From assembly GCA_030651375.1 (NCBI GenBank), contig JAUSFM010000016.1, positions 1-64,000 of the forward strand: a DNA stretch of 64,000 nucleotides. Reading direction: 5' to 3'. The notes under the pieces were generated by a model that was not told where the DNA came from, ran no database searches, and worked only from the letters and a program-made list of their open reading frames with translations. How positions within the stretch are numbered: the stretch's first letter is position 1; each line of letters opens with the position of its first letter. Source of the stretch: Candidatus Woesearchaeota archaeon. Lineage in GTDB: Archaea > Nanobdellota > Nanobdellia > Woesearchaeales > UBA12501. This document shows, one piece after another, positions 27,592 through 32,630 of the stretch. A program made the translations under genes and the position numbers.

Positions 27592-28122
27592 ATGAAGAGT
27601 GTAAAAAGAGGATTGCAGCTGGATACGCCGACACTTCCCGGCCATCGCGTGGTGGCACTGCCCGCGCCGTGGGGCCGCAGGATTCTCGCGTTTCTCATCG
27701 ACCTTATCATTCTCAACATATTCGTGACCGGCTCGTTTCAGAATGTGATTAGAAAATTGCTGCCGGCAGACGCATCGTATCACACGATTCAGTCAGCGCT
27801 TGAAAACCAGCCAGCACTGGCAACGGCCATTTTTTTCGTTGCGCTGCTCTCCGGCATTTTTGCTGTACTCTATTTTTCCATTCTGGAAAGCCAGTTGGGA
27901 TATACCGTCGGAAAACTGTTCATGCAGATTCGCGTTGCGCCGCTATACCATGAGCCGCTGACGTTCTGGAAATGTATGGTGCGCAGCCTCATGATGATTC
28001 CAGTATTCCCGTTCATTATCTTATGGATTGCTGACCCGCTGTATGCCTTGTTTTCGCCGCTCCGGCAGCGATTGCTGGAGCAGTGGAGCAAAACAATGAC
28101 TGTGAGTTATGTCGTCGTATAA
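27592..28122 (+). CDS. RDD family membrane protein
   Basis: This 176-residue protein has the RDD signature GRRILAFLIDLIILNIF at about 23-42 and the second conserved block QLGYTVGKLFMQIRV near 100. Three hydrophobic stretches follow the RDD pattern. RDD proteins are small membrane proteins, some linked to ion transport. The ATG at 27592 comes about 28 nt after a TATA-like CTTTAAATAC. sppA begins 13 nt downstream, so they form an operon. Confidence 0.82.
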   Translation: MKSVKRGLQLDTPTLPGHRVVALPAPWGRRILAFLIDLIILNIFVTGSFQNVIRKLLPADASYHTIQSALENQPALATAIFFVALLSGIFAVLYFSILESQLGYTVGKLFMQIRVAPLYHEPLTFWKCMVRSLMMIPVFPFIILWIADPLYALFSPLRQRLLEQWSKTMTVSYVVV

Positions 28123-28135
28123 AGGAGGGATTCAT

Positions 28136-29071
28136 ATGGAAAAACAATCACCAAAAACACCGTGGCTGACTATCATTCTTGTGCTCGTGGTGTTGAGCAT
28201 CTTCAGCGTGATTATCGCCGGCGGCATCGGCATGTTTCTCGGCATGGGCGGCAGTGAAACACCCGGCACGGGCAATGTCGCAATCATTCCGATTGAAGGC
28301 CCGATTGTCACCACACCAAGCACTGGACTGGGGCAACGCGAATCGGTATCGGATGATGTTATTGGCCTGATTGAAAAAGCACAAAAAGATGTCAGCATAA
28401 AAGCGATTGTCTTTTCCATTAATTCTCCGGGCGGCAGCCCGGTAGCATCGGATGAAATTGCAACAGCAATCAGACAGACAAATGCAAACAAGACAACAGT
28501 TGCGCTGATTCGTGACCTCGGTGCATCGGGCGCGTTTTGGATTGCAACTGCGACAAATCATGTTGTTGCGAATCCGGCATCATTCACCGGCTCCATTGGT
28601 GTCATTGGCTCGTATCTCGAATTTGGAAACTTCCTCGATGACCACAATGTGACCTACCGGCGGCTCACCGCAGGAAAATACAAAGACATGGGCAGCCCGT
28701 TCAAAACAATGACCGCGGAAGAACAGCAACTCTTCCAGCAAAGTCTCGATGAGTTGCACACGCTGTTCATCAATGCGGTTGCGGAAAACCGAAAGCTTTC
28801 ACCAGAAACTGTGCGCACACTTGCGACTGGCCAGTTTTACACTGGTATACAGGCAAAGAAATATGGGCTGGTTGACGATCTTGGAGGTATACAAGAAGTG
28901 CGTGCATACCTGAAACAGCAACTGAAGACCGACGTCAAATTTGTGTCCTTCAAAAAGCCGAAGGGATTGTTTGAGCGGCTGGCAAGCAGCTTTTCAAATC
29001 TCGGCTTTAGTGTGGGGCAGGGAATTGGGGCGAGCTTGAAGGAAGAACCGAACACCAAGATGATGGTTTAA
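28136..29071 (+). CDS. sppA: Signal peptide peptidase SppA (S49 protease)
   Basis: This 311-residue membrane-anchored serine protease degrades leftover signal peptides. A transmembrane helix is at 10-36. Conserved S49 blocks: FSINSPGGSPVASDEI near 93-108, GASGAFWIA with nucleophile Ser131, FTGSIGVIG near 150, and AGKYKDMGSP supplying the catalytic Lys (about 181). The length is that of the short archaeal/Gram-positive form. AAAGGAGGGA lies 6 nt before the ATG at 28136. Confidence 0.93.
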   Translation: MEKQSPKTPWLTIILVLVVLSIFSVIIAGGIGMFLGMGGSETPGTGNVAIIPIEGPIVTTPSTGLGQRESVSDDVIGLIEKAQKDVSIKAIVFSINSPGGSPVASDEIATAIRQTNANKTTVALIRDLGASGAFWIATATNHVVANPASFTGSIGVIGSYLEFGNFLDDHNVTYRRLTAGKYKDMGSPFKTMTAEEQQLFQQSLDELHTLFINAVAENRKLSPETVRTLATGQFYTGIQAKKYGLVDDLGGIQEVRAYLKQQLKTDVKFVSFKKPKGLFERLASSFSNLGFSVGQGIGASLKEEPNTKMMV

Positions 29072-29114: not shown

Positions 29115-29516
29115 CTACTTCAGTTCTTCATCAATCTCTTTCGCAATGTTCAGAAGCTCAAGACAGGATTCGTTGATGTCTTTCCGGAGCTGTTCAACAA
29201 CGGCTTCGAGGTTTGCCACGCGGAGAATGTAACCGCCTGGAGTGTGAATGATTAAGCCAGTACCAGCAAGTTTGTGCAAATGGAACACAACGGTGCCGCG
29301 GCTCAGGTTCGTGCGCACGGCGAGCTCATCTGATGTCAGCGCGCGGTGGCGCTTTGCGTTTTTCAGCAGTTCAAGAAAGACACGGAAGCATGATTTTTCC
29401 TTGTCACGCTGGCCAAACAGGCCGAGAGAGCTTCCAAACCATTGCAGCTCGTCGTTAATATTGCGCGCCGGAGGCTGATGGATTCTCACAATGGTGATGC
29501 GCTGCTGGCGGATCAT
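29115..29516 (-). CDS. Winged-helix transcription regulator, probable heat-shock repressor
   Basis: This 133-residue protein has a winged helix-turn-helix at about 45-105: TSDELAVRTNLSRGTVVFHLHKLAGTGLIIHTPGGYILR, an ArsR-like layout. A C-terminal amphipathic helix (107-133) probably dimerises. It is divergent from grpE-dnaK, and two palindromic operators lie between them, so autoregulation and control of chaperones is the simplest reading. The ATG at 29516 is preferred; upstream frame has no ATG and contains an operator. A TATA-like TTTATATAG lies about 30 nt upstream. Confidence 0.82.
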   Translation of the reverse strand: MIRQQRITIVRIHQPPARNINDELQWFGSSLGLFGQRDKEKSCFRVFLELLKNAKRHRALTSDELAVRTNLSRGTVVFHLHKLAGTGLIIHTPGGYILRVANLEAVVEQLRKDINESCLELLNIAKEIDEELK

Positions 29517-29556
29517 GGTTTTCAAGGTATTTAAAGGGACGCCCCTATATAAAAGT

Positions 29557-29573
29557 GTTGATTTCAAGTCAAC
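29557..29573. promoter_or_regulatory. Operator 1 of the grpE-dnaK/regulator intergenic region
   Basis: GTTGATTTCAAGTCAAC, a near-perfect palindrome (GTTGA arms pair with TCAAC). It abuts the upstream side of the regulator's TATA element (29545-29555). Confidence 0.75.
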
Positions 29574-29600
29574 GAAAGGTTTATATATGACCTCTGATTT

Positions 29601-29617
29601 GTTGATTTAAAGTCAAC
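29601..29617. promoter_or_regulatory. Operator 2 of the grpE-dnaK/regulator intergenic region
   Basis: GTTGATTTAAAGTCAAC, identical to operator 1 except for the central base, 44 bp away (about four helical turns). It lies where grpE transcription should start, downstream of the TATA element TTTATATATG at 29580-29589. Binding here would block initiation. Confidence 0.75.
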
Positions 29618-29636: not shown

Positions 29637-30206
29637 ATGGAACAAAAAAAACACGAACAGAAAAATGAATCAAAGCAAGAGAAGCACGAAAACAAAGAAC
29701 AGAAACATGCCCCTGAGCACACCCCTGATACCACGCCTCCGACCCCTGACAATATCAATACCCCTGACCTCGTCAACGACCTTACCAACACGGTCAAGCG
29801 CGTGCAAGCAGAATTTGAAAACTACAAGAAACGGGTACTGCGAGATCAAGACGCAAGCCAGAAGCACGCGGTCGCCAGCTTCATCAAAAAAATAATCCCT
29901 ATCATTGACACATTTGAGCTTGCACTGAAACACACTGATAACCACAACGATTTTGTCACGGGCATGACACTCGTGCATGAACAACTCAACGCGGTGCTCA
30001 AGCAGGCAGGTGTTGAAAAAATACAAAAAAATATTCCGTATAATCCTGAACTGCATCATGCGCTCCTCGCCGAGGAAAGCGACCAGCCGGAACAGACGGT
30101 CCTGAACGAAATCCTACCGGGCTACATGCTGTATGGTATGGTGCTGCGGCCGGCACAGGTAACAGTTGCAAAAAAAAGAGCACAAAAAAATGAAAAAAAG
30201 CAGTAA
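29637..30206 (+). CDS. grpE: GrpE nucleotide exchange factor
   Basis: This 189-residue co-chaperone releases ADP from DnaK. The N-terminal 45 residues are charged and Pro-rich. A long helix follows (about 50-95; VKRVQAEFENYKKRV), then the family core with IIPIIDTFELAL and the beta-wing region NPELHHALLAEESDQPEQTVLNEILPGYMLYGMVLRPAQVTV. It is first in the chaperone operon. The 3' end overlaps the next gene by 17 nt. Confidence 0.94.
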   Translation: MEQKKHEQKNESKQEKHENKEQKHAPEHTPDTTPPTPDNINTPDLVNDLTNTVKRVQAEFENYKKRVLRDQDASQKHAVASFIKKIIPIIDTFELALKHTDNHNDFVTGMTLVHEQLNAVLKQAGVEKIQKNIPYNPELHHALLAEESDQPEQTVLNEILPGYMLYGMVLRPAQVTVAKKRAQKNEKKQ

Positions 30207-30747
30207 CGAAAAAAGAGAAAAAATAACGATTGCCAAAGACACCCCAACCGAAGAAATCCTGAAACTATCCCCGGCATGCCGCTGCGGCGGATGCGAACAC
30301 GGATGCACCGTTGGTTCAGGAATCTTCCTCGACCATGAAATCATTCCGCTCGCGAAATTCCTCAACATCAGCGAAGAGGAGCTCAAGGAAAAACGCCTTG
30401 AAAAAGTTGAAAAGTTCAACACCACAAAATATCGGCCGAAAACAGAAAAAGGATGGTTTAAAAAATATGGAAAATGCACGTTTTACGACGAGAAAAAAGG
30501 GTGTACCATCCATGCGGTCAAGCCGTTTGAATGCAGAATTTCATCCGGCTGCAATGGTGTCGGAGAGGACATCATCGCGTGGTTCAATCTGAACCATTTC
30601 GTCAATGAGCATGATCCTGAATCCCTGCGCCAATACGCGCAGTATTTGAAAAGCGGCGGGAAGATGATTCCGGGTGGCGAGCTGGAAAAGCTTGTGCCGG
30701 ACAAGAAAAAAAGAAATGCGATATTAAACTACAAGATACTCAGGTGA
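30190..30747 (+). CDS. YkgJ-like cysteine-cluster protein
   Basis: This 185-residue protein has about eight conserved cysteines: [10 protein letters not shown] at about 29-38, YGKC near 96, KKGC, FEC and SSGC near 118. The pattern CxxC...C...C suggests a zinc or iron-sulfur centre, as in YkgJ (DUF/CxxCxxCC) proteins. No catalytic residues are clear. It is nested between grpE and dnaK with overlap upstream and a 5-nt gap downstream. I chose the ATG at 30190; an earlier TTG at 30166 is less likely. A second, shorter member is at 48701-49171. Confidence 0.72.
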
Positions 30748-30752
30748 AAAAA

Positions 30753-32630
30753 ATGGCAAAACAACACACACAAGGAAAAGCAATCGGCATTGATTTAGGA
30801 ACAACCTTTTCAGCAGTCGCGGTTATGGAAGGCGGAAAGGCAACGATTATTCCTAATTCAGAAGGCGACCGAACAACGCCCAGCGTTGTTTCAATCAAGG
30901 GCAACGACCGCATTGCGGGAAAAGTGGCGCGAAACCAGGCTATCATAAATCCGGGCAACACGATTCGCAGCATCAAGCGCCACATGGGCGAAAAAGGTTT
31001 CGTCGTGGCAATTGAAGGCGAAGATTTTACACCGCCGCAGATTTCTGCAATGATTCTCCAGAAAATGAAGCGCGATGCAGAAGCATATCTTGGCCACCCA
31101 GTTAATGATGCAGTTATTACCGTGCCTGCGTACTTCAATGACAGCCAGCGCCAGGCAACGAAAGATGCTGGCGCGATTGCAGGGCTGAATGTTATTCGCA
31201 TTATTAACGAGCCAACCGCAGCAGCGCTTGCGTACGGCCTTGATAAGGGCCATGACCATACGATTCTCGTATTCGACTTCGGCGGCGGAACATTCGACGT
31301 GTCCGTGCTGGAACTCGGCGACGGTGTCTTCGAAGTAAAAGCAACCTCGGGTGATAACCACCTCGGCGGCGATGACATTGACGACGCTATTATCGACTGG
31401 CTTGCGGTTGATTTCAAAAAAGAAACAGGAATTGACCTGCGCAATGATCCAGTCGCGCACCAGCGCCTGAAGGAGGCGGCAGAGCGCGCGAAGATTGAAT
31501 TGTCCGCGGCGCAAACCGCAACAATAAACCTGCCGTTTATCACGGCGGACAAAAACGGCCCGAAGCACCTCACCAAAAATTTGAGCAGGGCGCTGTTTGA
31601 AAAAATAAACGAGCCGATTTTCAAGCGGCTTGAAGGCCCGACCAAGCAGGCATTGCGCGATGCAAAGATGGAAACCGTTGACAAAGTTATTTTTGTCGGC
31701 GGCTCAACCAGGATTCCTGCAGTGGAACAATTGGTGAAAAACCTGCTCGGCAAAGAAGGTGACAAGTCGGTCAATCCCGATGAAGCAGTTGCCATTGGCG
31801 CTGCAATTCAGGCAGGTATTCTCGGCGGAGAAATCAAGGACGTATTGTTGCTTGATGTCACGCCCTTGAGCCTTGGCATTGAAACCCTCGGTGGCGTGTT
31901 TACGAAACTCATCGAGCGCAACACCACGATTCCGACCAAAAAAAGCCAGGTGTTCAGCACTGCTGCGGACAATCAGACCGCAGTTACCATCAACGTTCTC
32001 CAAGGAGAGCGCAGCATGGCGGCTGACAATAAACCCCTTGGCAAATTTGACCTGATGGGCATTCCACCGGCGACGCGCGGCATTCCCCAAATCGAAGTCA
32101 CGTTTGACATTGACGCTAACGGCATTGCCAGCGTCAGCGCCAAAGATCTGGGCACGGGCAAGGAACAAAAAATTACGGTCACCGGCTCGGGCAACCTGTC
32201 CAAAGACGAAATCGAGCGCATGCGCAAGGAAGCAGAAGCAAATGCTGCTGACGACGAGAAAAAGCGCAACGAAATCGAAACAGTCAATCAGGCGGATTCG
32301 TTTGTGTACACCACTGAAAAAACAATGAAAGACTTCGAAGGCAAAGTGGATGAAAAAACACTCACGCCATTGAAGTCAACGGTTGAGGAATTGAAAAAAC
32401 TGCTTGAGCCGGCGAACAAAGACTTCGATGCTATCAAGAAGCGGCTTGATGAAGCGACCAAGCTGATGCAGGAAGCGGCAACGGAACTGTACAAGAAAGC
32501 AGGGCCGGCGCCGGACTTTTCCAATATGGGCGGTGCTGCAGGCGGTGCCAGCGGTGGCCACGGAAAAAAGAAGAAAGGCAAAGATGACGAAGCCGTGGAT
32601 GCCGACTTTAAAGCATCGGATGAGAAATAA
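30753..32630 (+). CDS. dnaK: Chaperone DnaK (Hsp70)
   Basis: This 625-residue Hsp70 has the phosphate motif [13 protein letters not shown] near 12-25, [22 protein letters not shown] and the substrate domain after about 390 ([22 protein letters not shown]). The C-terminal lid is normal and ends in a Gly-rich then Lys/Asp tail. The ATG at 30753 with AGGTG upstream is preferred to a GTG 9 nt earlier. DnaK in archaea is generally taken as bacterial in origin; here grpE and dnaJ are nearby, with dnaJ 3.6 kb downstream. Confidence 0.96.

Follow-up and report, generated by a model that had tools for sequence, protein, structure and literature searches.

A 17-bp palindrome beside grpE-dnaK as the very probable heat-shock control element of a large group of tiny archaea

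In the 64,000-nucleotide stretch of a Candidatus Woesearchaeota genome analysed here (the window), a gene for a small winged-helix protein is transcribed away from a grpE-dnaK operon, and the short region between them carries the same 17-bp sequence twice. What do these two copies do, and which protein reads them? Both copies are exact and lie 44 bp apart (start to start), as a first-pass annotation of this DNA had reported, and both are near-perfect palindromes that fit GTTGAYTTNAARTCAAC (Table 1), a property that is an addition to that annotation. Its matching nAAAG extension after both copies turned out to be off register by one base (GTCAAC is followed by GAAAG at site 1 and by TGAAAG at site 2), and we have rejected the AAAG as a part of the operator, being out of register and, after site 1, belonging to the BRE of the grpE promoter. 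When up to three mismatches were allowed, a scan of the window found the two sites and one weak match only; in the shuffled window five matches were never reached. From composition, 0.0017 exact copies of GTTGAYTTNAARTCAAC would be expected in the 1.3-Mb genome, and the two that were found are both at the regulator/grpE region.

Table 1. Features of the regulator/grpE intergenic region and of the neighbouring genes (positions in the window)
Feature	Position	Strand	Basis or remark
Winged-helix regulator gene, 133 aa, ATG at 29516	29115..29516	-	Divergent from grpE
Regulator TATA box (TTTATATA on the - strand); predicted start ~29523	29546..29553	-	Sequence
Operator 1 (site 1), GTTGATTTCAAGTCAAC	29557..29573	.	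Sequence match; kept in relatives
BRE of the grpE promoter, GAAAGG	29574..29579	+	Sequence; cgaaa-TTTATATA core shared with targets in relatives
TATA box of the grpE operon, TTTATATA	29580..29587	+	Sequence
Operator 2 (site 2), GTTGATTTAAAGTCAAC	29601..29617	.	Sequence match; similar placement in target promoters of relatives
grpE	29637..30206	+	Pfam GrpE 7e-36
Cysteine-cluster protein (CxxCxxCC domain), between grpE and dnaK	30190..30747	+	Pfam PF03692; synteny
dnaK (Hsp70)	30744..32630	+	Pfam HSP70 1.5e-236

Archaeal transcription starts lie about 26 bp from the TATA box, and this spacing has been used here to predict starts. Site 1 is placed between both core promoters, abutting the regulator TATA box (with an overlap of about 3 bp with the predicted BRE of the regulator) and lying flush against the grpE BRE on its other side, while site 2 spans the predicted start of grpE transcription at ~29610, about 26 bp from the centre of the grpE TATA box. 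The annotated arrangement, with one site adjoining the regulator TATA and the other over the (predicted) grpE start, could be confirmed from the sequence, and Pfam matches likewise bore out the identities of grpE and dnaK and of the adjacent 133-aa protein as a winged-helix-turn-helix (wHTH) protein. The gene order regulator, grpE, CxxCxxCC gene, dnaK was the same in most of the relatives' loci that were read. The CxxCxxCC protein is putatively Zn/Fe-chelating, and its gene holds this place in the operon across Woesearchaeota.

Besides the two exact copies, a search of the same genome with up to two mismatches gave one site with a single mismatch and one with two; the reversed control pattern gave one match. 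The 1-mismatch site sits over the predicted start of a gene for a CDC48-type AAA+ ATPase. The 2-mismatch site (C3:258335) is located within a coding sequence and was dismissed as a chance match. A motif scan upstream of hsp20, thermosome and proteasome genes had been suggested as a check. Hsp20 was not detected in this genome, so that this part could be followed only in relatives, where it came out positive (see below); the thermosome of the genome, its one Cpn60-family protein, has no operator site, and no proteasome gene was found at the exact sites examined.

Relatives were collected by an alignment-based search of genome contigs, which yielded 282 of them, mostly Candidatus Woesearchaeota by the names in public records (a single-protein query had given no match). 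In a sample of 99 relatives the consensus GTTGAYYTNARRTCAAC occurs exactly 67 times, in 55 genomes, against 0.56 occurrences expected by composition, and its reversed control does not occur at all in the same 99. An unbiased search, in which all gapped 5+5 palindromes were counted upstream of 79 regulators with 20 shuffles as control, ranked GTTGA-N7-TCAAC first at the regulator promoter, with 55 of the 79 loci; the highest count of any palindrome in the shuffles was 5. The site at the regulator-grpE promoter is conserved not only across the order but also in other families of its class. Confinement of the motif to this genome among its relatives, which the first-pass annotation had named as an outcome that would refute its proposal, was thus not what was found. 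At several sites a second, weaker or degenerate copy is found 20 bp away (9 counts, suggesting a recurring spacing), and the 44-bp pair of the window recurs, among the sites read, only at the grpE of genome G058.

The genes behind the sites make up a consistent set. About 36 of the 67 exact sites are at the promoter of the regulator itself. The other 31, in 30 places, precede grpE (16), groES-groEL (6), hsp20 (5, two of which lead a grpE operon and one groES-groEL) and cdc48 (3), and a chaperone or Cdc48 gene adjoins the site in all 30. Representative genes of this regulon were confirmed by Pfam, and GroEL by NCBIfam; the other names were read from translations. The archaeal heat-shock circuit that had been proposed for the window is supported by these neighbours, which make a response to heat plausible. 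One of the cdc48 genes behind an operator (L145:2612-5017, in genome G093) is split by a LAGLIDADG-bearing intein.

Which protein would bind the site? The 133-aa regulator has a Pfam HTH_11 match above the cut-off, and its AlphaFold2 model (mean pLDDT 78) consists of a wHTH followed by a long C-terminal helix, through which the protein could dimerise. Relatives of the regulator are present in 80 of the 99 genomes, and their HTH segment LSRGTVVHHL, the recognition helix, hardly varies, R73, T75 and H79 being fixed, which matches the invariance of the operator core. In a sample of 281 genomes of the class, about 100 have a strong regulator match, and all 43 genomes with an exact site also have the regulator (Fisher p <1e-18, a value that ignores species kinship and is no more than a guide). 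Outside the order the site is present in ten genomes; in nine of them it lies between the regulator and grpE-dnaK, and L221 has one copy before the regulator and one before grpE-dnaK. The adjacent wHTH protein had been annotated as the natural binder, and this co-occurrence argues for it. Among the 55 motif-positive genomes of the order sample the regulator was not detected in three (G042, G045 and G096), which are 77-93% complete metagenome-assembled genomes (MAGs); G382, of the same genus as G045, does have it. Conversely, the exact site is missing in 28 of the 80 regulator-positive genomes, some of which have sites with one mismatch only.

A second subfamily of this wHTH regulator, about 26-31% identical to P0001, is encoded in relatives divergently from groES-groEL or hsp20(-cdc48) (L224, L227, L228, L231, L232, L233 and L175). 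Since such paralogs exist beside chaperone genes, and one of their promoters (L175) contains an exact site, the palindrome might be bound by them or by some other factor, the adjacent regulator having a different role. We hold this to be very improbable: the remaining paralog promoters that were read have no site, in many motif-positive genomes the first subfamily is the only one present, and the site goes with the promoter of this subfamily's own gene. A search among the paralog promoters for a shared operator of their own found none.

Promoter geometry gives an idea of how the regulator might act. In 27 of the 28 target promoters scanned, the centre of the site lies 17-40 bp, mostly 31-40 bp, downstream of the TATA centre; with starts predicted about 26 bp from the TATA box, the site usually falls on the start or immediately downstream of it, a position from which a bound protein would exclude RNA polymerase, as reported for Phr. 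The exception is the hsp20 of genome G035 (L148), whose sole site is just upstream of the BRE, as is site 1 in the window. This promoter, the flush position of site 1 upstream of the grpE BRE and the same 44-bp pair at the G058 grpE are what would be expected if the protein were an activator recruiting TFB/TBP from site 1, in the manner of Ptr2-type activators; this seems quite improbable to us, as most targets have a single site in the repressing position. The inverted repeat could also function at the level of the transcript, as a leader hairpin or RNA thermometer, and would indeed fall within the 5' leader in about half of the targets. This last alternative is scarcely credible, given that site 1 and several target sites lie ahead of the predicted start, in part or in whole.

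We therefore consider it very likely that the palindromes are operators of the adjacent 133-aa wHTH protein and that this protein is an autoregulating repressor of a regulon of Hsp70, GroEL, Hsp20 and Cdc48. We infer the protein as the binder, its action as a repressor and heat as the signal, with repression and release by heat suggested by the promoter geometry and by the nature of the regulon. Dimers of the winged-helix protein would bind both palindromes; at site 1 the protein would overlap the BRE/TATA of its own gene and repress it, and at site 2 it would sit on the transcription start of the grpE-CxxCxxCC-dnaK operon and keep RNA polymerase out. It would also repress cdc48 in its own genome, and groES-groEL and hsp20 in relatives. 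Under protein-damaging stress, such as heat, DNA binding would be lost and the entire chaperone set expressed.

Could the signal be something other than heat? The regulator might read the operator but respond to redox, metal or another stress, with residue C43 and the CxxCxxCC protein taking part in the sensor. Along this line, C43 is nearly invariant, and most relatives retain the CxxCxxCC-domain gene between grpE and dnaK. We regard such a signal as unlikely, since Hsp70, GroEL, Hsp20 and Cdc48 are the classical proteotoxic-stress set and some relatives (L013, L028) have leucine in place of C43.

A regulator gene and chaperone genes with one common operator are the mark of an archaeal autoregulated heat-shock repressor circuit, and this is what was found here. 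A 2022 review counts only Phr and HSR1 as known heat-shock regulators of archaea (PMC9133787), and a 2023 paper places key heat-shock proteins outside their regulons (PMC10653856). Phr of Pyrococcus furiosus is an autoregulating archaeal wHTH protein with its operator on the transcription start and with hsp20 and an AAA+ ATPase gene among its targets (PMC9133787, PMC10653856). The system described here has all of this in common with Phr (for autoregulation and the start, as predicted), but its conserved site, GTTGAYYTNARRTCAAC, is without the architecture of the 29-bp Phr operator, made up of TTTA, TGGTAA and AAAA elements (PMC9133787), and neither Hsp70 nor GroEL is reported in the Phr regulon. 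HSR1 of Archaeoglobus fulgidus is likewise autoregulating, has an inverted-repeat operator and shows links to both hsp20 and an AAA+ ATPase (PMC9133787, PMC10653856). The regulator of the window would share these three traits; the operator sequences differ, CTAAC-N5-GTTAG in HSR1 versus GTTGA-N7-TCAAC here. The annotated distinctness from Phr sites hence holds against the published operators of both regulators. Compared with the known archaeal heat-shock regulon, the hsp20/AAA+ core is common, while Hsp70 and GroEL are added here under another operator.

The layout is also reminiscent of bacteria, where the repressor HrcA is often encoded beside grpE-dnaK, has a palindromic operator near the start (CIRCE, TTAGCACTC-N9-GAGTGCTAA) and controls a dnaK and groESL regulon. 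The regulator gene by grpE-dnaK, the palindrome near the start and the dnaK and groESL operons are common to both, but the regulon here also includes the archaeal cdc48 and hsp20, and the regulator gave no match to the HrcA family in Pfam or NCBIfam. Among solved structures, Sulfolobus tokodaii ST1889 (PDB 2d1h, E=1e-7) comes closest by profile, and it ranks 7 by fold (probability 1.00); the alignment begins only at residue 33, the N-terminal segment not being common to both, and no functional account of ST1889 was found in the literature searched. The profile of 30 relatives, compared with all PDB chains (E<=1), retrieved 45 sequences with no chain named Phr among them, and Phr was absent from the top 50 by fold.

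No description of the operator was found in the literature searched, the coverage of which was partial. The circuit is of a known kind, an autoregulated repressor and its operator, in a group where none seems to have been described. We think that it probably represents a family of heat-shock repressors apart from both Phr and HSR1, with an operator of its own that brings together the Hsp70 system, the group I chaperonin, Hsp20 and Cdc48 in Woesearchaeota and related Nanoarchaeota. If true, DPANN archaea would have their first predicted heat-shock regulon, and grpE-dnaK the first operator to be reported from archaea. An operator, a candidate protein and a target set are hereby defined in a very large and mostly uncultured archaeal group, and the archaeal control of Hsp70/GroEL systems, which archaea share with bacteria, together with that of the archaeal Cdc48 becomes directly testable. 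The 17-mer can be used for regulon prediction in MAGs and is a ready binding probe.

Two features of the neighbourhood of the locus can be added. In L147 (1672-2031) and L170 (3114-3479) the CxxCxxCC gene after grpE is replaced by a gene of 119-121 aa with the pattern NDGDxFxxNExSIxFxPxxFxxDFK. Just past the 3' end of the regulator gene, at 28109-29071, there is a gene for an S49 (SppA-like) protease, which is found in the same place in L007.
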